A DNA stretch of 64,000 nt from a virus. The translations under genes were made by a program, and so were the position numbers. This document shows, piece by piece, positions 21,269 through 48,382 of this stretch. Each line of letters begins with the position of its first letter. The stretch's first letter is position 1. The stretch is from IMG/VR virus record IMGVR_UViG_3300023170_000013, positions 29,944 through 93,943 of that record, one strand, 5' to 3'. The notes beneath the pieces are model-generated. The model was not told where the DNA came from. It was given only the letters and a program-made list of their open reading frames with translations, and did no database searches.

Positions 21269-21787
21269 ATGATATTAGGTTTAGATGTTAGCACAAGCAT
21301 AACTGGAATTTGTGTACTTGACAAAGAAGAAAATATAGTTTATAATTCTGCTGTGGATACTAGAAAATACAAAAATATGTACGAAAAAGCAGAAAAAGTA
21401 AAAGAAAAGCTTAAAGAATTAAAAAAAGAATATGATATTAATAGCATTTATATTGAAAAGTCTTTGCAATCTTTTAGATCAGGCTTCTCCTCTGCGAAAG
21501 TTCTTTCAACATTATCTGCTTTCAACGGGATTGTATCTTGGTTCTGTTATGAGATCTATGGAATTTCACCAGAATACATTTCGGCTTCCTCCGCAAGAAA
21601 AGATTGCGGTATCAAAGTTCCAAAAGGCCAAAAGGCAAAGCCCTTTGTTTTAGGAGTTCTGGTGAAAGAAGGTCTAATAAATCCAGAATACACGAAAAAA
21701 GGAAATCCAAAACCTATTTATTACGATATGTCAGATGCGATTGTCATTGCAAAATCAGGATTTTTAAAAAGGAGAGCAAATAAATGA
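21269..21787 (+). CDS. RuvC-like Holliday junction resolvase (RNase H fold)
   Basis: A 172-residue protein with the layout of RuvC-type resolvases. D6 is in G-L-D-V-S-T-S at the first strand, E63 in I-Y-I-E-K-S, and D153/D156 in Y-D-M-S-D-A near the end. Together these would supply the acidic metal-binding residues that cut four-way junctions. In T4 the equivalent job is done by the unrelated gp49 (endonuclease VII), so here it probably resolves branched replicative DNA before packaging. It is the first gene of the DNA-metabolism block and overlaps the next gene by 4 bases. A related role in another RNase H-fold nuclease family cannot be excluded. Confidence 0.8.
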   Translation: MILGLDVSTSITGICVLDKEENIVYNSAVDTRKYKNMYEKAEKVKEKLKELKKEYDINSIYIEKSLQSFRSGFSSAKVLSTLSAFNGIVSWFCYEIYGISPEYISASSARKDCGIKVPKGQKAKPFVLGVLVKEGLINPEYTKKGNPKPIYYDMSDAIVIAKSGFLKRRANK

Positions 21788-22224
21788 AAATCACTAAAAA
21801 GCTTTTGATGAAGATCATCAAAGAAGAATTGGTTAGAGAAAGTATGAGCGATTGGCAGGCACACGACCGAAGAGAACGAGGTTTGCCCCCGCTAAAGGCC
21901 AATTACGACATTTCCAATAGTATCCCTCCTGATGGATATGTCCCGCCTCCCGAGCCCAAACTCGAAAACCCCCCTCCCCTTCCACCTGCGACAGAGCAAG
22001 ATCTGGAAAAAGGAAGAATGGTCAGTTTTGACGGCCCCTATGAACAACAGATTCATTTCTTGAAAATGCATAATCAATGGTTAAGAAGAGTGTATATGAA
22101 GCCTCGCGTAAAGGGCTACGAGAGCCTAAGCCGGCTTGAGCAACTTAAAGTCCTAGCCAACGGTCCCAATCCCGGTGCGGTCCACGCAGACAAGGGAAGC
22201 TTGGAAGACTACCCTCTGGCATAA
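21784..22224 (+). CDS. Proline-rich protein with N-terminal capsid-tag-like helix
   Basis: A 146-residue protein that begins M-K-I-T-K-K-L-L-M-K-I-I-K-E-E-L, the tag found in several unrelated proteins here. After the tag come a charged segment, a proline-rich region (residues about 50-75, with P-P-P-E-P and P-P-L-P-P) and a helical C-terminal part with no recognised domain. The I-K-E sequence in the tag fits a T4-type prohead protease site. The start overlaps the resolvase stop (ATGA), so it is co-expressed with the resolvase. Its function is unknown; a packaged virion-internal protein is my inference from the tag. Confidence 0.6.
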   Translation: MKITKKLLMKIIKEELVRESMSDWQAHDRRERGLPPLKANYDISNSIPPDGYVPPPEPKLENPPPLPPATEQDLEKGRMVSFDGPYEQQIHFLKMHNQWLRRVYMKPRVKGYESLSRLEQLKVLANGPNPGAVHADKGSLEDYPLA

Positions 22225-26773: not shown

Positions 26774-26790
26774 CTATTTATATATAAATA
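26774..26790 (+). promoter_or_regulatory. T4-type late promoter (TATAAATA) overlapping a CTATTTATA element
   Basis: CTATTTATA at 26774-26782 runs into a perfect T4 late-promoter core, TATAAATA, at 26783-26790. It lies in the 42-base gap between the early Mre11-Rad50 gene and the accessory/lysis operon, 19 bases before the ATG at 26809. This is where an early-to-late switch would be expected. Confidence 0.6.
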
Positions 26791-26808: not shown

Positions 26809-27228
26809 ATGATCAAGATTAAGTTCCTCAAAAAACTCCCCGTTTCAGGAGGCAAATGCCCTCCTGCCACACAAGATCTGAAACTAAACACCAAAAATAG
26901 AAACGCTTCAATTAAGGCAGAACACATCCAATACGGCCCTTTAAACCTATCTGACGAGGCTTATTGGGAAAGAGCCGCAGAACATTGGAACACCACTCCT
27001 GCCGTGGCTAAAAAGTCCAAATGCGGCAATTGTGTTGCTTTTGATATTTCACCTAGAATGGATGATTGTATGCCCGGCCCTGTGTCCGATAAGGATGGCC
27101 GTTTGGGTTACTGCTGGATGCACCACTTCAAATGCCACAGTGCGAGAACATGCTACACATGGGCAGCAGGTGGGCCAATCAAAGAAGACAAAGTTTCCCT
27201 TGAATGGCAAGAAAAGGGTGAAAAATAA
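26809..27228 (+). CDS. Conserved cysteine-rich protein, possible metal or Fe-S binder
   Basis: A 139-residue protein with seven cysteines (17, 72, 75, 87, 102, 109, 115). The motif block is C-G-N-C-V-A-F-D, M-D-D-C-M-P-G, G-Y-C-W-M-H-H-F-K-C and S-A-R-T-C-Y-T-W-A. The spacing suggests bound zinc or an iron-sulfur cluster. I recall close relatives of this block in marine T4-like phages, sometimes labelled high-potential iron-sulfur-like, but the function is unproven. It is the first gene after a TATAAATA late promoter and is coupled (TAATG) to the Lys-rich gene that follows, so a virion-associated role is possible. Confidence 0.65.
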   Translation: MIKIKFLKKLPVSGGKCPPATQDLKLNTKNRNASIKAEHIQYGPLNLSDEAYWERAAEHWNTTPAVAKKSKCGNCVAFDISPRMDDCMPGPVSDKDGRLGYCWMHHFKCHSARTCYTWAAGGPIKEDKVSLEWQEKGEK

Positions 27229-28499
27229 TGCCCTATAAGATCAGGAAAACAAAGTGCAAAAAATCAGATGGTTCTTCCGGAACTCACGTTGTTTATAAAA
27301 AAAGCGGTAAGCGTGTCGGATGCACAGATGAGCCAGAAGATTACAAAAAAGCTCTTTATGCAGCAGAAGTTAATGAAGTTTTGATCTTGGAAGATACGCT
27401 GTATAAAAACGTAGAAGATGACGTGTTTCTACACTTTACCTTGCGAGATAGAGCTTATAAGATCAGAGAAATGGGAGAATTACTTCGACAGCCCGAAGGT
27501 ATAGAGAAGTTTGGAACAGATACAATTGACGCAGTTTCTTTGATTTGGGGAGATTTTGTCCCCAAAGTGCAGACCAATCACCTAGGCGGCGAAGACATTG
27601 TAGCAATCATTTTCAAGACTGATGTGCCTCCAAAATATGGCTATGTTGAAGAGGTGAAATGGGACGTTGAAAGACTTCCTATTTACGATGTTAGGATTGT
27701 GCCTTTCGAAGAAGCAGTTCAAATGTTGAGAAATGCGCCTGAATATGTCGATGAAATGGATTATGTTCTTTACAAGGAAAATAAACAAATGAATATTGAA
27801 GACCTAAGTGCGATCATTCGAGAGGAAGTTAAGCTTGCACTGGAAGAAGCCAAAAAGAAGAAAAAGAAGAAGAAAAAATCTAAAAAGAAGAAGGGCAAAG
27901 ACGATCGCTGCACTCGTATTGCAAAAAGAAAGTATGATGTGTGGCCGTCAGCCTACGCTAGCGGCGCAGTTGTTCAGTGCCGCAGAGGAAAGATTTGGAA
28001 AGGTCTAACAGAAGAGAAGGAAATCACCCCAGAAGACAAAGAGACAATTTCTGATATTGTAGCCAAATTGAGAGCAGCATCGGAGTCTCACGCTCAAATG
28101 GCAAAAGATTTGGAAGATGGTGCAGCAAAGCTTGAAAAAGGTTCAGAAGCCCATTCTAGCCAAGCAGACAAATTAGAAAAGATGATCCAAGAAAGAAAAA
28201 AGAAGAAAAAGAAGTCTAAAAAAAAAGTAAAAACTGACTTCTCCAAAGAAAAGGACAAAGGCCTTCACGGTTGGTTTGAAAGGCAAGGTGGTAAAGGAAA
28301 AAGTAAAGGCTGGGTTGATTGTAATACTTGCCGAACAGACAAGAAAACAGGAAAGAAAACTTGTAAATCTTGTGGTCGTCAAAAAGGCGAGAAAAGAGCA
28401 AAATACCCCTCTTGCCGTCCAACCCCTGCTGCTTGTGGGACTGCTGGCAAAGGAAAGTCTTGGGGTAAAAAGTCTGCTAAAAAAGGAAAAAAGAAATGA
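27228..28499 (+). CDS. Lys-rich multidomain protein with DUF5872-like cysteine module
   Basis: A 423-residue, extremely basic protein built of modules. Residues 1-45 form a small basic Cys-containing unit (Y-K-I-R-K-T-K-C to K-R-V-G-C-T-D). Residues about 50-180 are a globular domain. At 188 a helix M-N-I-E-D-L-S-A-I-I-R-E-E-V like the tag of other proteins here is followed by a poly-Lys run. Next comes R-C-T-R-I-A-K-R-K-Y and W-P-S-A-Y-A-S-G-A, and last, from about 345, G-L-H-G-W-F-E-R-Q-G-G with C-N-T-C and C-K-S-C. The last modules resemble those called DUF5872 in aquatic viruses. It could bind packaged DNA; this is inference. Confidence 0.65.
   Translation: MPYKIRKTKCKKSDGSSGTHVVYKKSGKRVGCTDEPEDYKKALYAAEVNEVLILEDTLYKNVEDDVFLHFTLRDRAYKIREMGELLRQPEGIEKFGTDTIDAVSLIWGDFVPKVQTNHLGGEDIVAIIFKTDVPPKYGYVEEVKWDVERLPIYDVRIVPFEEAVQMLRNAPEYVDEMDYVLYKENKQMNIEDLSAIIREEVKLALEEAKKKKKKKKKSKKKKGKDDRCTRIAKRKYDVWPSAYASGAVVQCRRGKIWKGLTEEKEITPEDKETISDIVAKLRAASESHAQMAKDLEDGAAKLEKGSEAHSSQADKLEKMIQERKKKKKKSKKKVKTDFSKEKDKGLHGWFERQGGKGKSKGWVDCNTCRTDKKTGKKTCKSCGRQKGEKRAKYPSCRPTPAACGTAGKGKSWGKKSAKKGKKK
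27789..28499 (+). other. Possible internal translation start giving a tagged shorter protein
   Basis: Inside the Lys-rich gene, an in-frame ATG at 27789 is preceded by AAGGA with about 9 bases of spacing. The protein from this point (236 residues) would begin M-N-I-E-D-L-S-A-I-I-R-E-E-V-K, which resembles the N-terminal tags of neighbouring proteins and includes an I-R-E site. Either a second product is made or the tag sits between two domains as a protease site. The sequence does not decide between these. Confidence 0.35.
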
Positions 28500-29342: not shown

Positions 29343-29621
29343 ATGGAATTTCCTTTCAAAGAAAAGAAGTTAGAAAACAATATCGTGATCAGAGAGTTCA
29401 AAGAAAATGTTGATTCCGAAGAGCTTATCTGGCATAGAGATAGAGAAAACAGAGAAGTTACAATCTTGCAATCTTCTGGATGGCAACTTCAAATGGACAA
29501 TGAAATTCCAAAAACCCTTGAAGAGGGAAAAACTTATTATATTCCTGCTTTTGTTTACCACAGAGTGATCAAAGGCAGCGGCAATCTTATTGTTAAAATA
29601 AAAAAGGAAGAGATTAAATGA
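29343..29621 (+). CDS. Small cupin-fold protein
   Basis: A 92-residue protein with the pattern of a single cupin barrel: I-W-H-R-D-R-E-N-R at the first conserved strand, a central W-Q-L-Q-M-D-N, and G-K-T-Y-Y-I-P-A-F-V-Y-H-R-V-I-K-G-S-G near the end. The two histidines (H31 and the one in V-Y-H-R) are likely metal ligands. Small cupins of this type occur in T4-like cyanophages as I recall, with no proven substrate. It starts 2 bases after the preceding stop and overlaps the next gene by 4. Confidence 0.65.
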   Translation: MEFPFKEKKLENNIVIREFKENVDSEELIWHRDRENREVTILQSSGWQLQMDNEIPKTLEEGKTYYIPAFVYHRVIKGSGNLIVKIKKEEIK

Positions 29622-31435
29622 AGATGAAATTAATCATGGAAAGTTTTCGAAAAACAATGAAAGAATTCAAAGAGAGAGAAGGCAAAACAATGTCTTATGA
29701 TTCTTCTTTGGGTGGCTTTGTTGTTTCAAAAGAAGACTTGTCAAAAATCAACCAAGCAATCGAAAAGATCTACAAAGCATTTGAAGAAAGAACCGGAGGA
29801 ACTGCTGAAAATATCCCTAGGATTGAAGCAGAAGATCTAGAGCCTGTTGCGGGAGCTTTGAACGAATCGGCGGAACAAGGTGGGGAGCCCACCGAAGAGG
29901 AAAAGGATTATATTGCTCTACGACATTTTGGATACGATTCATGGAACGAATTGCCCGAAGAAGACAAAGATCTTGTGATGAGAAGGTTGGAGCTTTTCAC
30001 TTCGGGCGGCGAAATGAAGCAAACCATTGGAGCCGTTAGTGGCTTGAAAAAAGGTCTGGGACGTATGAGCCCAGAGGACTTTGAAAAAGGGGGATACGTC
30101 CTTCCCGTTTCCGCAGAAGTTCTGGAAGATTTTCAGGCTATGGTCAATGAATTGAAAGAAGGTGGTGAAGTCGATAGCCTTTTTGAAAAAGCTAGGGACT
30201 GGTATCATAAAATTAGAGATCTCCTCGATGAAGAAACTGGAAATGATCAAGACGCTACTTTGCTAGGTCTTCTTATTGCAACGTACAGCCCCAGAGCAAA
30301 GTTTGCTCTGAACTTGGCTGAAGCTGCTTTTATGTTCAAAGCAGTTGAAATGGATGCAAAGGACAACAAAGAGCTTTTGAGAGAATATATTAATATCTTT
30401 CCCGGTGGTAAAAAGAAAAAGCAGGGAGAATTTCGAGGGTTTACAAAGGCGCACAAAGTTCCAAACTTCACCCTGAACCTGATCGCCCCAGATTTGTCTG
30501 GTGGGCGAGATAAAGAAGGGAAAATTAGCTATGATGAGCTTTATATGTGGAACTCCACAATTGACACTTGGATGATTGACGCTTTTTATCCAAATGTCAG
30601 AGGTGTTACAACGGCAAAAGAATGGGAAAAGATCAAAGGCAAGATGATGGGTAACGTTGTTACTTATCGGTATATGGCAGGGTTGGTCGCACAGGAAGCG
30701 AAAAAACTAGGCCTCTTACCTCATGAGCTTCAAGCTATTGTGTGGGTTGCTTCTCAAATCAGAAAGACTGGAGAGAAAGGTCTTGGTGTCACTACTGAGT
30801 TTGCAATCAATCAAATTAAACAATCCATTGTCAACCTAGAAAAGATTAAAGAACAATTCAACGAAGAGGAAAGGATTAATAAGAAGTTGGTCGGACCATA
30901 CCTTAAAGAGTTGGATATGGACAAAGAATATACAGAACAGTTTGGAGATCAAAGCTGGCTTAAAGTTATTTTGGATAAGATTGAAACAGATGGTTTTGAT
31001 GAGGCTGCTGATTATATCTTAGGAATTAAAAAAGGAGACAAAACGGTTGTTCCCGGTGTGCGCTCTATCACAGCCTCTGGTAAGAAAGGGAAAGAACCAG
31101 ATCGCTTTAATCCTGTTCGCCCAGAGTTTAAACCAAAGAAAGAGAAGAAAGAAAAGGAAGAAAAGAAGAAGAAGCCAAAGGACACAAGATATCAAGACGC
31201 AGAAAAATATGGAGAACTTAAAACATTTTATGTTATGAATGAAGTCATTCAGATGCGAACCGGAAAGTTCAATAACCTTCACGACTCAATTCTTTTGTAT
31301 TTGAGTGATGATTTCTCTAAAGAAAAGGCTGTTGATTATATTCTAGGCAGGTTCGACTCCGAAGCAAAAGCCTCCAAAGATTATTTCATCAAAGAAAGCA
31401 AAAGAAGATTTGTTGTAAGGATTTTGAAATCATGA
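29618..31435 (+). CDS. Large accessory protein, phage family of unknown function
   Basis: A 605-residue protein that I do not recognise with certainty. The first 20 residues are a basic amphipathic helix (M-E-S-F-R-K-T-M-K-E-F-K). Residues about 200-400 are mostly helical, with L-L-I-A-T-Y-S-P-R-A-K-F-A-L-N-L, D-T-W-M-I-D-A-F-Y-P-N and L-P-H-E-L-Q-A-I-V-W-V-A. This order resembles a widespread uncharacterised phage family (possibly DUF7178). A Lys/Glu-rich low-complexity linker lies about 505-525. It is coupled by 4-base overlaps to the cupin gene upstream and the lysis enzyme downstream. Confidence 0.5.
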   Translation: MKMKLIMESFRKTMKEFKEREGKTMSYDSSLGGFVVSKEDLSKINQAIEKIYKAFEERTGGTAENIPRIEAEDLEPVAGALNESAEQGGEPTEEEKDYIALRHFGYDSWNELPEEDKDLVMRRLELFTSGGEMKQTIGAVSGLKKGLGRMSPEDFEKGGYVLPVSAEVLEDFQAMVNELKEGGEVDSLFEKARDWYHKIRDLLDEETGNDQDATLLGLLIATYSPRAKFALNLAEAAFMFKAVEMDAKDNKELLREYINIFPGGKKKKQGEFRGFTKAHKVPNFTLNLIAPDLSGGRDKEGKISYDELYMWNSTIDTWMIDAFYPNVRGVTTAKEWEKIKGKMMGNVVTYRYMAGLVAQEAKKLGLLPHELQAIVWVASQIRKTGEKGLGVTTEFAINQIKQSIVNLEKIKEQFNEEERINKKLVGPYLKELDMDKEYTEQFGDQSWLKVILDKIETDGFDEAADYILGIKKGDKTVVPGVRSITASGKKGKEPDRFNPVRPEFKPKKEKKEKEEKKKKPKDTRYQDAEKYGELKTFYVMNEVIQMRTGKFNNLHDSILLYLSDDFSKEKAVDYILGRFDSEAKASKDYFIKESKRRFVVRILKS

Positions 31436-32148
31436 AGATGGACGAAAAATATCCTCTCCTTCCACACGACGAAGAGATTTCAGATTGGCAATGGTGTATC
31501 AAAAAAGCAATCATTGATATTCACGCCAAAGCAATGCCTTATAAAAGAGGCACTTGGGGTGGTTCAACCGAAGACATTTATTATGACAAAAGAAGGATCT
31601 TGAGAAAAGGCGAAGGAACCTACTGTGTTGGATGCACTTCTGAAATCTTCTTCCGCGCTTGGAAAGAATTCACAGGGGATTACCTTGAAACACCAGAAGG
31701 CAACTTTACAGGCAAAGAAGCTTGGGAAGTTGCAAGAGCCTTTTTCTTTGCTTACAAAGACGAAGAGATTGACGGAATGCGAACAGACGAATTTGGAGCA
31801 ATGGGTTGGTTTAAATGGTTAGCAAACAGACCAGAACGCTTTGATTGGATTGAAACCTTCACAACACACAATCCTTATGAGATCCAATTTGGAGATTGGG
31901 TTTCAATGCAGTTTGCAGAAGATTATTCATCCGGCCACGCTACAGTGGGGTTGGGATTGGACAAGTACAAAGGCAATGATGTTGTCAACGTTTATTCTTC
32001 AACTACTTATTATGATAAAACTTGGATGAAAGAAAAGGGCGTTGAAAATCCCTACTCAACAGGGAACGGCTTTGATTATTACCGTTTAAACGTAACAAAG
32101 AGTGGATTTAAAAGAAAGTTCTTTGTTTCAAGATTAGTTCAAAAATAG
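31432..32148 (+). CDS. Putative NlpC/P60- or CHAP-like endolysin
   Basis: A 238-residue protein with a papain-like layout. G-T-Y-C-V-G-C-T-S-E-I-F (C65 or C68 as nucleophile) begins the first helix. Later G-D-W-V-S-M-Q (residues 154-160) and S-G-H-A-T-V-G-L-G with H169 form the strand pair typical of NlpC/P60 and CHAP amidases. These enzymes cut peptide or amide bonds in peptidoglycan. No signal peptide is present, and a holin-like gene follows within 10 bases, which supports a cytoplasmic endolysin released by a holin. The start overlaps the upstream stop (ATGA). The family is remote, so the activity is inferred. Confidence 0.6.
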   Translation: MKMDEKYPLLPHDEEISDWQWCIKKAIIDIHAKAMPYKRGTWGGSTEDIYYDKRRILRKGEGTYCVGCTSEIFFRAWKEFTGDYLETPEGNFTGKEAWEVARAFFFAYKDEEIDGMRTDEFGAMGWFKWLANRPERFDWIETFTTHNPYEIQFGDWVSMQFAEDYSSGHATVGLGLDKYKGNDVVNVYSSTTYYDKTWMKEKGVENPYSTGNGFDYYRLNVTKSGFKRKFFVSRLVQK

Positions 32149-32157
32149 GAGTTTAAA

Positions 32158-32469
32158 ATGGCTAGAAGAACAGCTTTTGTTGATAAATATTTATCATCGT
32201 TTATTTCAAAAAAGTTATTGGTTTGGATTGTCGCAACAGTCGTGTTTTTGACAACTGGCAATCTTAAATCAGGAGATTGGCTTGTGATCTCTGCTATTTA
32301 CATTGGTGGGCAATCTGTTATTGACGCAGTGAAAGCAATGAAAGGCTCGACCAATGTTACAACGAAAGTTGAAACAGCAGTGAAGACAATCTTGTCCGAC
32401 AAAGACAAGAAAGATGAGAAAGGGAAAGTTCCCCTTTCTGATACAACAGGCGATACGGTGACAAAATGA
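32158..32469 (+). CDS. Putative holin
   Basis: A 103-residue protein with two hydrophobic segments, about residues 19-34 (L-L-V-W-I-V-A-T-V-V-F-L) and 41-59 (D-W-L-V-I-S-A-I-Y-I-G-G-Q). A charged tail rich in Lys and Asp follows. Size, two membrane spans, charged C-terminus and position right after a peptidoglycan-hydrolase-like gene match class II holins. A TAGGAG ribosome site precedes the ATG and the stop overlaps the next start. The alternative is a structural membrane protein. Confidence 0.6.
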   Translation: MARRTAFVDKYLSSFISKKLLVWIVATVVFLTTGNLKSGDWLVISAIYIGGQSVIDAVKAMKGSTNVTTKVETAVKTILSDKDKKDEKGKVPLSDTTGDTVTK

Positions 32470-32879
32470 GTGAGATTTGGGCAGAGGTTAAAAGAAAGTG
32501 GACAGAGTCCAAATATTTTATAGCAGTTGTTTTTGTTTTCTTGACAGTTGCTATTTTTCTTTTGACGACCAGCGATGGTCAAAAAAGATTGAGACAAATC
32601 ATAAGGTCTTTGCAAAAAAGAAGAGAAGATGAATTGTACGAAATCCAAGAAAAACAAAATCAAAAAGAAAAAGAAAAGAAAGATTTAAAAAAGAAACATG
32701 AGAAGATTTTGGAAGAGATTGGAAAAGAATACAAGATTGGAAAAGAAAACGCCAAGAAAGAATACGACAAGAAGGTTAAAAAGATCTTGAAACAAACAAA
32801 GAAAGATCCTTCTCAGTTGTCCAAAAGATTGGCAGATGAATTTGGTCTTGACTACAAGGAAGATAATAATGAAAATTAA
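32466..32879 (+). CDS. Putative inner-membrane spanin-like coiled-coil protein
   Basis: A 137-residue protein with one N-terminal membrane span (residues about 18-36, F-I-A-V-V-F-V-F-L-T-V) and then a long Lys/Glu coiled coil to about residue 115. This is the architecture of Rz-type inner-membrane spanins, which fuse inner and outer membranes in the last step of lysis of Gram-negative hosts. It overlaps the holin-like gene by 4 bases and the tagged ArdA-like gene by 11. No lipoprotein partner is obvious within it; the product at 33419 is a candidate partner. Confidence 0.55.
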   Translation: MSEIWAEVKRKWTESKYFIAVVFVFLTVAIFLLTTSDGQKRLRQIIRSLQKRREDELYEIQEKQNQKEKEKKDLKKKHEKILEEIGKEYKIGKENAKKEYDKKVKKILKQTKKDPSQLSKRLADEFGLDYKEDNNEN

Positions 32880-33405
32880 AAAAAAACAACTCTTAAAAAT
32901 CATCAAAGAAGAGCTTTTAAAAGAAAACATACAAGAACTTTTTGCAACAATAAGACAGCTTATCAATGCCGGCCAATATGACAGGGCATATGCTCAAATC
33001 ATGGTGCAAATTGATGAAGACGATCCAAAGCACAAAATGGCAATTGATTATCTTGTTAGGCACAGTGGAGATGATTCGTATGAAGATAAGCTAAATAGTT
33101 GGCCTGATAGCGATTTTAGAAAATTAATTGCATATGGCTTTCTGCAATACGATCATGATTTTGATGACTTTCTGTCGAACTATGTCCAAGGTATCTTCGA
33201 AAGTCCCGAAGATTATCTTAAATATAGGTGGGAAGAGTACACTTGGGACATGATTGAGGAGCTTCCACTTCCCTCCGACATAGAACGTTATATCGATATC
33301 GAAATCAATTGGGCTATGTGGGCAAGAGACAGTGAGCTTAATGGCGAGTTTGCATCTTGGGAGCTTGATGGCGTTCCCGGAGTTTTGATTATATCCCCAG
33401 CATAA
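32869..33405 (+). CDS. ArdA-like antirestriction protein with N-terminal capsid-tag-like helix
   Basis: A 178-residue acidic protein. I chose the ATG at 32869 over an in-frame ATG at 32836 because AAGGA lies just upstream and the tag then starts at residue 1 (M-K-I-K-K-K-Q-L-L-K-I-I-K-E-E-L). Residues about 105-162 resemble the last domain of ArdA DNA mimics: G-I-F-E-S-P-E-D-Y, E-E-L-P-L-P-S-D-I-E-R-Y-I-D-I-E, then A-R-D-S-E-L-N-G-E-F. ArdA proteins block type I restriction enzymes by imitating DNA. The N-terminal ArdA domains are not visible, so this is a short or divergent form. The tag suggests it could be packaged and injected. Confidence 0.55.
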   Translation: MKIKKKQLLKIIKEELLKENIQELFATIRQLINAGQYDRAYAQIMVQIDEDDPKHKMAIDYLVRHSGDDSYEDKLNSWPDSDFRKLIAYGFLQYDHDFDDFLSNYVQGIFESPEDYLKYRWEEYTWDMIEELPLPSDIERYIDIEINWAMWARDSELNGEFASWELDGVPGVLIISPA

Positions 33406-33418
33406 GACAGGAGTAGAA

Positions 33419-33859
33419 ATGATTACCTTTAAACGCGTTTTAAGCACCATTCTAGCCACTTTCATCACAATTTCGCCCTGCTATGCCAATAAGTCCACAA
33501 GGCTTCAAAAAGGGGCAAAAGCGCCCTTTTCTGGAACGCTCTTGGATGATGAAGCGGTAGCAAAGATTTTGGCAAAACAAGATTACTTGAAAAAAAGCTT
33601 GAAGTTGGATTGTTCTTACCAAAGACAAAAAGAAAAAGCAAAGCTTCAATTGAAGATTGATCAATGCAAAGTAGATTTCAAAATTGAGAAAGAATTGAGA
33701 AAAAACTTAAGAAAGATTGATCAAGAAGAGATTACAAGATTAAGAAAGATTGCAAAGCCGCAAAACAATTGGACACCTCTTTGGATCACAATTGGCTTTG
33801 TTGCAGGAGCAGGAACAACAATTTTAATTCTTTATGGAATACAAGGAATTCAAAAGTGA
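33419..33859 (+). CDS. Secreted, C-terminally membrane-anchored lysis-region protein
   Basis: A 146-residue protein with a signal peptide at residues 1-23 (hydrophobic I-L-A-T-F-I-T-I-S then C-Y-A before N-K). A periplasmic part follows with A-P-F-S-G-T-L-L-D-D-E-A-V-A-K-I-L and a coiled-coil stretch containing two Cys. A C-terminal membrane span lies at about 119-141. The A-P-F-S-G-x-L-L-D motif is one I associate with lysis-region proteins of tailed phages. A role as spanin or spanin partner is plausible. It shares four bases with the next, tagged, gene. Confidence 0.5.
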   Translation: MITFKRVLSTILATFITISPCYANKSTRLQKGAKAPFSGTLLDDEAVAKILAKQDYLKKSLKLDCSYQRQKEKAKLQLKIDQCKVDFKIEKELRKNLRKIDQEEITRLRKIAKPQNNWTPLWITIGFVAGAGTTILILYGIQGIQK

Positions 33860-34311
33860 AGATCAAAAAAGAAACCATTTTCAAGATCATCAAAGAAGAG
33901 ATTGAAAGAGAACTTTCAAAAGAAGAAAAGCACAAGATTGTTTCTTTTGATTTTGATGATACCTTGACCTTTGCTCCTTTTGATCCGGAAGAAGAACATT
34001 CTGTTTACAAAGGGCCTCATGAGGAAATGATGAAAAAGATTAGAGGCTATATCGAAGATCCAGAAGTTACCGTTTATATTGTAACAAGCAGAAAGCAGGG
34101 CGGCATGGGACAAGTTAAAGGTTTTGTCGAAAAATATAAATTAAAAGTTGACGGCATTTATTGCACAGACGGAGATTGGAAAGCCCCCACTTTGAAAGAA
34201 TTGGGTGTAACTTTGCATCATGACGATGACAGTCAAGAAAATGAAAGAGCAGAAGCAGTAGGAATCCAGACAGTTCCAAGTGATCCATATGGCGATTACG
34301 GCACATTTTAA
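33856..34311 (+). CDS. HAD-family phosphatase with N-terminal capsid-tag-like helix
   Basis: A 151-residue protein. GTG at 33856 is chosen as start because AAGGA stands 8 bases upstream and the tag (V/M-K-I-K-K-E-T-I-F-K-I-I-K-E-E-I) begins exactly there; it overlaps the preceding stop (GTGA). HAD motif I is F-D-F-D-D-T-L-T (D32, D34), motif II is T77 in V-T-S-R-K, a Lys near 109 may be motif III, and H-D-D-D (123-125) is motif IV. Such small HAD enzymes dephosphorylate nucleotides or polynucleotide 3' ends, as in the T4 Pnkp phosphatase domain. The substrate here is unknown. Confidence 0.7.
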   Translation: MKIKKETIFKIIKEEIERELSKEEKHKIVSFDFDDTLTFAPFDPEEEHSVYKGPHEEMMKKIRGYIEDPEVTVYIVTSRKQGGMGQVKGFVEKYKLKVDGIYCTDGDWKAPTLKELGVTLHHDDDSQENERAEAVGIQTVPSDPYGDYGTF

Positions 34312-34338
34312 AGCAACAGGCCAATGGAGAAGTTATAG

Positions 34339-35133
34339 ATGAAAAGTCATAATAGCAATATAAAAATTAAAAAGAATCTTCTCTTCAAAATTCTGAAAGA
34401 AGAGATCAAAAAAGAATTTTTGAAAGAAGGTATTTTAAGGATTCAAGATTATATTTCAAATGAAAATTTGAAATTGATTGAAGATACGTTTCGCAACCTT
34501 TTAAATACATATTTAACTTCCGATAGAGAAGAAAGCCTTTATTGGAATGTTGAGAAATTTGAATTTATAAATGTTGCCGGAGAGGAGGAGGTTGTTGACT
34601 TGATGCTTTCCGTTGGTCGGCCACCAAGAGGAATGGAAGGGGCTGTTGCATATCTAGATGCTAGGCCCAGTATTGGCTATTACCACTTAGCAATGTGTGT
34701 GTTAAACAAGGAAGATTATGATATAGAGGACGGTATTGATACCATGATTAATCATGAATTAATTCACTTGATAGATTCAAAATATTTTAAACGAAAAGAC
34801 AGGAAAAAAGCTTACTTAGCTAGGCGAGAAGAAATTTTAGCTTTTTCTAGTCAGATATATAAACAGGTTGTTGACTTTTTAAATTCGGAAGATGAGCAGG
34901 ACAAAGATTATTTGAATATTTTGCTTAATCTTTATAAAGATGGTGCGATAAAACAATTACAATTATTTAAAGCTATATTAAAGACTAGTCAACAGCTTGG
35001 AGCGATAGGCAAAGATCCCAGATTTATAAAATCTATAATGCATCAGCACACAATGAAAGATAAGCAACCTTATTTAAAACATCTTTACAAAAAATTGTGG
35101 CCATTGATTCAAAAGAAACTTCAGGAGGTTTAA
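34339..35133 (+). CDS. HExxH zinc metallopeptidase-like protein with tag helix
   Basis: A 264-residue protein. After a six-residue extension, the tag reads N-I-K-I-K-K-N-L-L-F-K-I-L-K-E-E-I. Residues 139-143 are H-E-L-I-H in I-N-H-E-L-I-H-L-I-D, the zinc and catalytic motif of gluzincin-type peptidases. E164 or E165 in A-R-R-E-E-I-L-A-F is a suitable third ligand twenty-odd residues on. The C-terminal part is helical. Its substrate could be a host protein after injection or a virion component; neither is shown. It is followed by a coupled small zinc-binding protein (TAATG overlap). Confidence 0.65.
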   Translation: MKSHNSNIKIKKNLLFKILKEEIKKEFLKEGILRIQDYISNENLKLIEDTFRNLLNTYLTSDREESLYWNVEKFEFINVAGEEEVVDLMLSVGRPPRGMEGAVAYLDARPSIGYYHLAMCVLNKEDYDIEDGIDTMINHELIHLIDSKYFKRKDRKKAYLARREEILAFSSQIYKQVVDFLNSEDEQDKDYLNILLNLYKDGAIKQLQLFKAILKTSQQLGAIGKDPRFIKSIMHQHTMKDKQPYLKHLYKKLWPLIQKKLQEV

Positions 35134-41358: not shown

Positions 41359-41958
41359 ATGTCAAAGAAGTTGTTAACAGAGTTTTATGAATTATGCCCC
41401 AATGGGGTTTGCGAAGATATATTAACGGAATCGGAAAAAAGAATGGTTAGGGAGAACGGTGCTCTTTTTCTTTCTGGAGTGATCCAAAGAGCGGAGCATT
41501 TGAATGGTAATGGTAGAGTTTATCCCCGACCTATCTTACAAAGAGAAATGAGCACTTATCGTAAGCTGATCGAAGAAGGAAGAGCAGTTGGAGAACTGGA
41601 TCATCCAGACTCTTCTGTTGTGAACCTTCGTAATGTTTCCCACAAAGTTACTGACTGCTGGTGGGATGGTGATAATGTTTATGGAAAATTGCAAGTATTG
41701 AATACACCTTCTGGTCAAACTCTTCGCGCTTTGGTTGAAGGAGGTGTTAAGATTGGGATCTCATCGCGTGGATTGGGCTCTGTTGTTGAGTCTGCCGGTA
41801 GAACATTAGTAGAAGATGACTTCCAGCTTATCTGCTTTGACATTGTACAAGAACCTTCTACTTCTGGTGCTTTCCTTTTCCAAGAAGAAAAGCAAAGGCT
41901 TCATGAAAACAAAAATGTAAAAATCAATTCACTTTTAGATGACATTTTAAAGGGATAA
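41359..41958 (+). CDS. gp21: Prohead core protease (gp21-like)
   Basis: A 199-residue serine protease of the T4 gp21 (herpesvirus assemblin-like) fold. The catalytic His is H82 in V-G-E-L-D-H-P-D, the nucleophile is S135 or S136 in I-G-I-S-S-R-G-L-G, and an upstream G-R-V-Y-P-R motif is conserved in the family. It is packaged in the scaffold and, after prohead assembly, digests scaffold and trims the capsid protein and any tagged internal proteins at [I/L]-x-E sites. A candidate tagged protein follows 1 base downstream. Confidence 0.9.
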   Translation: MSKKLLTEFYELCPNGVCEDILTESEKRMVRENGALFLSGVIQRAEHLNGNGRVYPRPILQREMSTYRKLIEEGRAVGELDHPDSSVVNLRNVSHKVTDCWWDGDNVYGKLQVLNTPSGQTLRALVEGGVKIGISSRGLGSVVESAGRTLVEDDFQLICFDIVQEPSTSGAFLFQEEKQRLHENKNVKINSLLDDILKG

Positions 41959-41959
41959 A

Positions 41960-42355
41960 ATGAAAATCAACCTTGAAAAATTAAAAAACATTATTAGACC
42001 TATTGTTAAAGAAGTTATTGAAGAGTCTTTGACAAAAGATGGTCTTTTAGCTTCCATTATCCAAGAGACAGCAATCGGGTTGGCAAAAGCACAAGTTATT
42101 GTTGAAGAAAAGAAAACCAACCAATCTCAAAAGATTAGAATGGAACAGCAAAATAGAAAAAATCAAGAAGCAAGAAAAAAGCTTTTGGACTCTATTGGAA
42201 GTCAAAGGTTCAATGGTGTGAATGTTTTTGAAAACACAAAGCCAATGACCGCTCAAGAAAGCAGCCGTTCCCCCTTGGCCAACCAAGATCCAAATGATGC
42301 GGGTGTGGATATCACAGCGCTTCCGGGAATGGGAAACTGGTCAAAACTAATTTAA
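41960..42355 (+). CDS. Small protein downstream of the protease with tag-like N-terminal helix
   Basis: A 131-residue protein. The N-terminus M-K-I-N-L-E-K-L-K-N-I-I-R-P-I-V-K-E-V-I-E-E-S is a longer variant of the tag seen elsewhere and contains an I-E-E site. The middle is a charged coiled-coil (residues about 50-75) and the C-terminus is Pro/Gly/Asp rich. It is directly behind the protease, where other T4-like phages carry head-core proteins. It may be a core component whose N-terminal helix is the prototype of the cargo tag. No domain is recognised. Confidence 0.55.
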   Translation: MKINLEKLKNIIRPIVKEVIEESLTKDGLLASIIQETAIGLAKAQVIVEEKKTNQSQKIRMEQQNRKNQEARKKLLDSIGSQRFNGVNVFENTKPMTAQESSRSPLANQDPNDAGVDITALPGMGNWSKLI

Positions 42356-46582: not shown

Positions 46583-48382
46583 ATGTCTGTATTGAAAACT
46601 TTGACAGAAGGCATTGTTGAGCGTGACCTTGCACAAGAAGGCAAAGCACTTCTTTCCAAGTGGGAAAGAACTGGTCTTCTCGAAGGTCTCACTTCTGACT
46701 ATCAGCGTCAGTCGATGTCTCGTCTGCTTGAAAACCAAGCAAAACAACTCTTGAAAGAAGCATCCTCGATGGCTGCTGGTGATGTGGAAGGCTTCTCTGC
46801 TGTTGCTTTCCCGATTGTTCGTCGTGTCTTTGGCGGTCTCGTTGCTAACGATATCGTTTCAGTTCAGCCCATGAGCCTCCCCTCTGGCCTGATCTTCTTC
46901 ATGGACTTTACCTACACCAACTCACGACTTGGTGAAACCGCAGGTCGCTCCATTTATGGTACTGACAAAGTGGCAAAAGGCATCAGAGATGGTGTCAACA
47001 TCATTGATAGTACCTACACTACCAATAACGGTGGCCCCTACTTGATGGGTGGAACTTATGCTTCCCCTACCGCTTCTTGTCGGGTTACCTCCAGTGCAGT
47101 CTCTGCTATTGACTACATTGATCTGGACGCCATCACCGATGCAGAAGCAAAGAAAATTCGCTTTGACCCGGACCTCTCCGGCTCGACCTCTCTCAACCTG
47201 TGGGAGATTGCTCTTACTCGCGCCGATCTGGAAGTATTCGGCGAAACTACTGATGATCTGCTTGACTATGATAACTTGCCGGCGTTTACTATGACTGGCG
47301 ACCAGTTGGCAGAATTTGTATCTGGTGGTGTTGATGCAATTGTTGACATCGCTTCCGGCAACACCAAGCAAATTCGTCGCCTGACCCAGCAGACTTCGAC
47401 TCTGCTTAAGCTTTACTTTGTGTCCGAGCTTGGTTGGGGTGCTAACTTGGCAATTAAAACCGGCGTTGAAAAACAAGGTAATCTGGTTGCTCCGGTTAAA
47501 GACGACTTTGATATCGGCGGCGCGATTGGTTCCGTTGTCGGTGGAGATCCTTGGGGCCTTGAAGGTGCTGGTTCTGCTGCTGGTACTTTTGATGGCAGGG
47601 CTCGCGACTTGATCCCCGAAATCGATATTAAAGTTGATTCGGTTGCTGTCACCGCGCAAACCAAAAAGCTCAAAGCAAAATGGTCTCCGGAACTTGGTCA
47701 AGACCTCAACGCATACCACAACTTGGATGCAGAAGTTGAACTTACCTCGATCCTTTCCGAGCAGATTGCTCTTGAAATTGACCGTGAACTTCTGAATGAC
47801 CTCGTGAACGGCGCTACTGCTGCTACCCGTTACTGGTCGCGTTCACCCGGTCTTTTTGTGGACCGAACCACTGGCGCAGAAGTTGGTGCAAACACTGCTG
47901 CTCCGGACTTCACCGGTACTGTTTCCGAGTGGTATGAGACTCTTGTCGAGACCATCAACGATGTGTCCGCAGAAATCCACACCAAAACTCTCCGTGGTGG
48001 TGCAAACTTCATTGTTTGTTCGCCGCAGGTTGCAAACATTCTTGAGTTTACCTCTGGTTTCCGTGCTTCTGTCACTGCTGATGTTGCCAAAGGCGACATT
48101 GGTGCTGTCAAGACTGGCAACCTTTCCAAGAAGTTTGACGTTTACGTTGACCCCTACTTCCTCAAGAACGTGATTCTTGTTGGTCGTAAAGGTTCCAGCT
48201 TCCTTGAAAGCGGTTATGTGTACGCACCTTATGTGCCCCTGCAAGTGACCCCGACCATCTTTGGTGTCGAAGACTTCGTGCCCCGAAAGGGTGTCATGAC
48301 CCGTTACGCCAAGAAAATGGTCCGACCCGATATGTACGGTCTGGTTGTTTGTCGCGGACTTAACGGCGAAAGCGGAGCATAA
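46583..48382 (+). CDS. gp23: Major capsid protein (gp23-like)
   Basis: A 599-residue HK97-fold capsid protein. The N-terminal 60 residues form a charged helical propeptide as in T4 gp23. L57-K58-E59 followed by A60 is a good [I/L]-x-E prohead protease site, and the sequence after it (G-F-S-A-V-A-F-P-I-V-R-R-V-F) matches the start of the mature shell domain. The end has R-Y-A-K-K-M-V-R-P-D-M-Y-G-L-V-V. A strong AAGGAG site precedes the ATG. Its codons are richer in C- and G-ending forms than those of its neighbours, as expected for the most abundant protein. A hairpin terminator follows. Confidence 0.93.
   Translation: MSVLKTLTEGIVERDLAQEGKALLSKWERTGLLEGLTSDYQRQSMSRLLENQAKQLLKEASSMAAGDVEGFSAVAFPIVRRVFGGLVANDIVSVQPMSLPSGLIFFMDFTYTNSRLGETAGRSIYGTDKVAKGIRDGVNIIDSTYTTNNGGPYLMGGTYASPTASCRVTSSAVSAIDYIDLDAITDAEAKKIRFDPDLSGSTSLNLWEIALTRADLEVFGETTDDLLDYDNLPAFTMTGDQLAEFVSGGVDAIVDIASGNTKQIRRLTQQTSTLLKLYFVSELGWGANLAIKTGVEKQGNLVAPVKDDFDIGGAIGSVVGGDPWGLEGAGSAAGTFDGRARDLIPEIDIKVDSVAVTAQTKKLKAKWSPELGQDLNAYHNLDAEVELTSILSEQIALEIDRELLNDLVNGATAATRYWSRSPGLFVDRTTGAEVGANTAAPDFTGTVSEWYETLVETINDVSAEIHTKTLRGGANFIVCSPQVANILEFTSGFRASVTADVAKGDIGAVKTGNLSKKFDVYVDPYFLKNVILVGRKGSSFLESGYVYAPYVPLQVTPTIFGVEDFVPRKGVMTRYAKKMVRPDMYGLVVCRGLNGESGA

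Follow-up and report, generated by a model that had tools for sequence, protein, structure and literature searches.

A putative head-targeting tag joined to an ArdA C-terminal-like module in a T4-like aquatic phage

A phage faces restriction before making any protein, and ArdA is effective for conjugative elements partly through its very early synthesis. In the ArdA protein of Tn916 (ORF18; structure 2W82), domains 2 and 3 comprise residues 62-103 and 104-165, with domain 3 serving antimodification and dimerization, and domains 1 and 2 serving antirestriction (PMC3906837). A small protein made of the ArdA C-terminal part only, sArdC, blocks type I restriction by EcoKI and EcoR124II (PMC12548430). 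Anti-restriction proteins may also travel with the DNA: in phage T4, the internal proteins IPI-III combine a cleaved targeting peptide of 10-19 residues with nearly unrelated cargo (PMC9026906, PMC3012670), and the injected anti-restriction proteins IP1-3 inhibit GmrSD (PMC12373910). Phage P1 carries the anti-restriction proteins DarA and Hdf in its head, and injection with the DNA was proposed earlier for the ArdA domains of polyvalent proteins (PMC5512222). Within a literature search of incomplete coverage, no earlier description was found of a head-targeting tag on an ArdA module.

The DNA analyzed here, hereafter the window, is a stretch of 64,000 nucleotides (IMG/VR record IMGVR_UViG_3300023170_000013, positions 29,944 to 93,943), and its terminase, portal, protease and capsid genes assign it to a T4-like phage whose nearest named relatives are Microcystis phage Mel-JY01 and Flavobacterium phage immuto. 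The gene of interest, found by ORF calling, occupies 32869..33405 on the plus strand (ATG at 32869, stop at 33405), is flanked by a spanin-like gene on one side and a second lysis-region gene on the other, and encodes a tagged, ArdA-C-like protein of 178 aa with a pI of 4.4. This ORF is a real gene: a Shine-Dalgarno-like AAGGA precedes it, its start codon lies inside the end of the preceding gene, and codon usage is compatible with this frame only. The gene is carried by one phage species, represented by the window and IMG/VR 3300023176_005537 (99.99% identical), from which all matches came when viral contigs were searched with the 178-aa protein. The same query gave no match in genome contigs, no tblastn relatives in phages and plasmids (where its C-domain alone produced chance matches to tape measures and other proteins), nothing meaningful in PHROGs or NCBIfam, and a single spurious phmmer match in the PDB.

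Among 24,736 Pfam families, ArdA (PF07275) was the top family for the protein (E 0.049), with residues 89-162 aligned to profile positions 87-147 and a score of 14.7 bits, which is under the curated cut-off of 27 bits. This assignment was made independently of a preliminary description, which had likened residues 105-162 to the ArdA C-terminal domain. ArdA sequences were taken from ColIb-P9, from phages and, by retrieval with a C-domain DNA pattern, from many further viral genes. An HMM built from 80 ArdA C-domains, almost all of viral origin and with the window protein left out, scored the protein at 15.7 bits over residues 72-157 and ranked it second of 50,001 in a composition-shuffle test; when 11,868 ORFs from related phage contigs were scanned, it was the sole match at E<1. 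In hhalign against 32 ArdA C-domains the window protein reached 28.4, compared with a maximum of 23.6 among 524 control proteins and shuffles, and an ArdA-C profile containing the window protein, run on 33 related phage records, matched the 32869 gene alone. An earlier, smaller full-length ArdA HMM placed the protein at rank 95 of 20,001, and the ArdA signal is therefore regarded as real but weak; pairwise BLASTP against ColIb ArdA gave no signal. The alignment to ArdA starts at about residue 71 and reaches the C-terminal end, the part aligned in ArdA being its domains 2 and 3. Thus, the proposed likeness held in the Pfam, HMM and hhalign comparisons with a wider extent than described, and residues 71-178 (33079..33402, plus strand), which are also covered by the structural comparisons below, show a statistically supported, weak resemblance to the C-terminal two thirds of ArdA.

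Translation of the ORF bears out the motif order of the preliminary description, with SPEDY at residues 112-116, PSDIERYIDIE at 135-145 and ARDSELNGEF at 152-161, an order shared with domains 2-3 of the Tn916 and ColIb-P9 ArdA proteins (GxFxSxEDY...P...YxDxE...ARD). Of the domain 3 motif, Y-x-D-x-E ... A-R-D-L, residues Y141, D143, E145, A152, R153 and D154 are retained and the final L is replaced by S155; the invariance of this motif in one ArdA alignment is partly by construction, as its sequences were retrieved by that motif. The protein is also acidic, as had been claimed, with a net charge of -18 over residues 71-178 (108 residues), or -0.17 per residue, within the range of viral ArdA C-domains (-0.183 +/- 0.029). 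Compared with ArdA, two of its helices are each longer by about four residues (one turn of helix). ArdA domain 1 (YVAxLxxYNxGxLxGxW) was looked for by alignment and is absent: this block holds N20, G22, G26 and W28 of the ArdA alignment, and nothing in the window protein corresponds to its W or to most of its length. The window protein thus differs from the Tn916 and ColIb-P9 proteins in lacking domain 1, in its score under the Pfam cut-off and in the L to S change, while sharing their charge density. Because domain 1 is absent, the protein is by alignment sArdC-like and not a full ArdA: like sArdC (PMC12548430) it has the ArdA C-terminal part only and is acidic, and it differs in its N-terminal tag, about 50 extra residues, the two helices lengthened by a turn, and a very low identity of 17-30%. 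Other short phage proteins consisting mainly of the ArdA C-terminal domain, and in this respect sArdC-like, were observed at L103, L105, L106, L124, L145 and L186.

AlphaFold2 modeling of the single window protein sequence was poor (pLDDT 38), and a model of residues 71-178 built on 17 viral ArdA rows reached a pLDDT of 78 and a pTM of 0.65. In VIA-align, this second model matched 2w82_B first, with a modest Z of 4.9, an rmsd of 5.0 and 92 of 108 residues aligned; the match spans chain residues 69-164, that is, domains 2-3 of the ArdA crystal structure. In BFVD, four of the five top matches were antirestriction proteins by name (best E 0.0078), and Foldseek of the same model against the PDB gave no significant match. 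As the alignment was made up of ArdA rows, the likeness of the model is a consistency test rather than independent proof. The comparison with ArdA suggested in the preliminary description came out in favor of 2w82_B in one search, gave nothing in Foldseek against the PDB, and is partly circular.

The first 16 residues of the protein, MKIKKKQLLKIIKEEL (32869..32916, plus strand), form a putative propeptide for head targeting, which may be cleaved after IIKE, as delineated by a tag HMM and by recurrence. Starts of this type are also present on genes 21784, 33853 and 34339 of the window and in relatives. An HMM of 22 tags, all taken from other phages, matched at the start Met of the 32869 gene (E 0.0063), detected the tag of the fourth tagged gene (21784..22224, plus strand, starting MKITKKLLMKIIKEEL; E 2.4e-5), and detected the 33853 tag weakly. 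A DNA pattern scan (at least 120 stretches) combined with terminase-flanking loci yielded at least 195 distinct tagged ORFs in related viral contigs, four of them within the window; their median length is 110 aa, and their bodies are mostly unrelated to one another and mostly without a known family. Flavobacterium phage immuto (immuto_13-6C), an isolated relative, also has a tagged gene, immuto136C_190 (QQO92346.1); its tag ends with IIKE followed by A. Among the tagged ORFs listed, the window protein alone matched the ArdA-C profile and no second ArdA fusion was found, and the tag was present on none of 77 viral ArdAs. A tblastn search of named phages with the tag peptide, too short a query, gave no match, and full-text literature of limited coverage contained no mention of the tag sequence. 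Judged by its recurrence, the N-terminal stretch of 15-16 residues is a genuine modular tag. The preliminary description had called it a putative packaging tag, and its recurrence and modularity are borne out by the tagged ORFs; packaging itself is supported indirectly, by this modularity, the probably late operon, cassette exchange and the match to a capsid motif.

Three sister contigs (L020, L021 and L024) join window position 32860 to 33418 with 5 bp between, and the 32869 gene is therefore a clean one-gene insertion (32861..33417, plus strand; blastn of the sister contigs against the window and junction sequences). A second tagged cassette (33853..34311, plus strand) encodes a HAD/5'-nucleotidase-like protein (phrog_1238, E 2.3e-7). 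In L019 and L020 its body is either lacking or has recombined at the tag, and L021 and L024 do not have the gene. The third (34339..35133, plus strand), recognized from its sequence and tag and likewise absent in L021 and L024, has a HELIH zinc-peptidase-like motif. Compared with window 33853-34385, L019:437-525 and L020:8272-8360 show the HAD-like tag leading into the peptidase-like body, with the crossover within the tag, as if tags act as recombination sites for cargo exchange. The tag regions of 33853 and 32869 are 76.6% identical in DNA over 77 nt, a likeness that points to exchange of cargo by recombination at the tag. At window 32143-32163, L020 (5171-7114) and L024 (3611-5554) carry a two-gene insertion encoding structural-looking proteins of 136 and 511 aa; it is bounded by an overlap of about 20 bp, and at its start the 136-aa protein is similar to window gene 42610. 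A T4-type late promoter-like site, TATAAATA (26783..26790, plus strand), lies 19 nt upstream of the gene that opens the overlapping run to which 32869 belongs; it may be a chance occurrence, as seven such sites were observed in the window against 2.2 expected by chance.

The major capsid protein (46583..48382, plus strand) has KQLLKE followed by AS at residue 59, where the pattern K[QE]LL[KR]E followed by A is almost invariant in the window phage and its relatives. This motif is presumably a prohead protease site; T4 gp23 is trimmed near the same position. The probable prohead protease (41359..41958, plus strand) was recognized by its N-terminal sequence and by adjoining portal/core genes as in immuto. 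The tag of the window protein ends in KIIKE followed by E, so that IIKE resembles the capsid LLKE (as KQLLKE resembles KIIKE) and the next residue is E instead of A. Tag end and capsid motif both fit the pattern KQ[LI][LI][KR]E. This resemblance is the main evidence from the sequence, of an indirect kind, that the tag may be a propeptide which targets the head and is cleaved off, as the T4 CTS is (PMC9026906).

The arrangement shares with T4 IPI-III a short N-terminal tag on unrelated cargo, what may be a protease motif at the tag end, gain and loss of genes, and, putatively, the anti-restriction role known for the IPs. It differs in the sequence and length of the tag, in an acidic rather than basic protein, and in packaging, which is putative here; the fold of T4 IPI* is also unlike that predicted for the window protein. 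The polyvalent proteins are large and multidomain, occur mainly in Firmicutes and are associated with ArdC-N, and P1 DarA and Hdf belong to another family, set apart by their literature description (PMC5512222).

We infer packaging, cleavage, injection, inhibition and target for the 32869 product, which would proceed as follows. The protein would be made late in infection from the lysis-region operon and directed to the prohead core by its N-terminal helix of 15-16 residues, after which the prohead protease would remove the tag behind I-I-K-E. The remaining acidic protein, ending in a DNA mimic like ArdA domains 2 and 3, would enter the next host together with the ejected DNA, where the module would occupy the DNA-binding site of a restriction enzyme before any phage gene expression, the target most likely being a type I system, at its specificity/methylase core. 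An antirestriction protein made in a late lysis operon would be of little use unless packaged, which favors packaging. Type I enzymes are put first among the possible targets because both ArdA and sArdC, with its C-terminal part only, act on them, and the type I proposal of the preliminary description is still reasonable given that sArdC blocks type I restriction (PMC12548430). We give about even credence to a head-packaged, injected DNA-mimic antirestriction protein of the ArdA-C type, analogous to T4 IPI and most likely directed at the type I core. Somewhat more tentatively, aquatic T4-like phages may possess a second head-targeting tag, MKITKxQLKQIIKEEL, which is unlike that of T4 and would serve as a port into which many different injected proteins are plugged, in a rapidly changing assortment; at 32869 the plugged-in module would be ArdA-C.

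The tagged cargo might instead be packaged and resemble ArdA by chance or through convergence of an acidic helical protein, acting as a core filler or on another host target. The subthreshold Pfam score, the one shuffle in 50,000 that outscores the window protein, the weak result of the first small ArdA HMM and the mostly unassigned function of tagged cargo would fit this explanation. We nevertheless consider it unlikely, since three profile tests converge on one segment and register, the window protein comes first of 525 in hhalign, its charge density equals that of ArdA, and the insertions of about one turn seem to sit at two helices rather than being scattered. More doubtful is an ArdA-C-like antirestriction protein that is expressed in the infected cell and left unpackaged, with the tag serving contact with the membrane, replisome or scaffold, or degradation; in other phages, ArdA is encoded by ordinary expressed genes that lack the tag, but the present gene lies in a probably late lysis operon, its tag end resembles the presumptive capsid cleavage motif, and the tag occurs on many small, diverse proteins, like the T4 CTS.

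A packaged ArdA-like DNA mimic with a target other than type I, such as BREX, a type IV enzyme or a host regulator, appears improbable, as the targets of ArdA and sArdC known so far are type I systems, even though T7 Ocr, also a DNA mimic, blocks BREX (PMC7261183), ArdA can alter gene regulation (PMC13300388) and T4 IPs target GmrSD (PMC12373910). Counted against the preferred reading, that of an injected ArdA-C-type inhibitor of type I restriction, are the Pfam score below the cut-off, the absence of ArdA domain 1, a P1' residue that is E and not A, G or S, a strongly acidic protein where the T4 IPs are basic, the partly circular model with ArdA rows, and the mainly antimodification role of domain 3 in Tn916 (PMC3906837).

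If correct, a head-packaged ArdA module would solve the timing problem of restriction, in the way that T4 IPI solves it for type IV enzymes, and the tag would mark hundreds of small aquatic-phage proteins as probable injected effectors. Three further genes of the window were noted. The gene following the probable prohead protease (41960-42355) starts with the weakly tag-like MKINLEKLKNIIRPIVKEVIEESL and may encode a core protein from which the tag arose. A 423-aa lysine-rich protein with K runs (27228-28499) contains an internal tag-like LSAIIREEVKLAL and the motif DDRCTRIAKRKYDVWPSAYASGAVVQCR, which a tagged protein in L288 also carries at its end; the lysine-rich protein may be a DNA-binding internal protein. 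Finally, the 29618-31435 product starts with MKMKLIMESFRKTMKEF, which is unlike the main tag and possibly represents another N-terminal targeting element.
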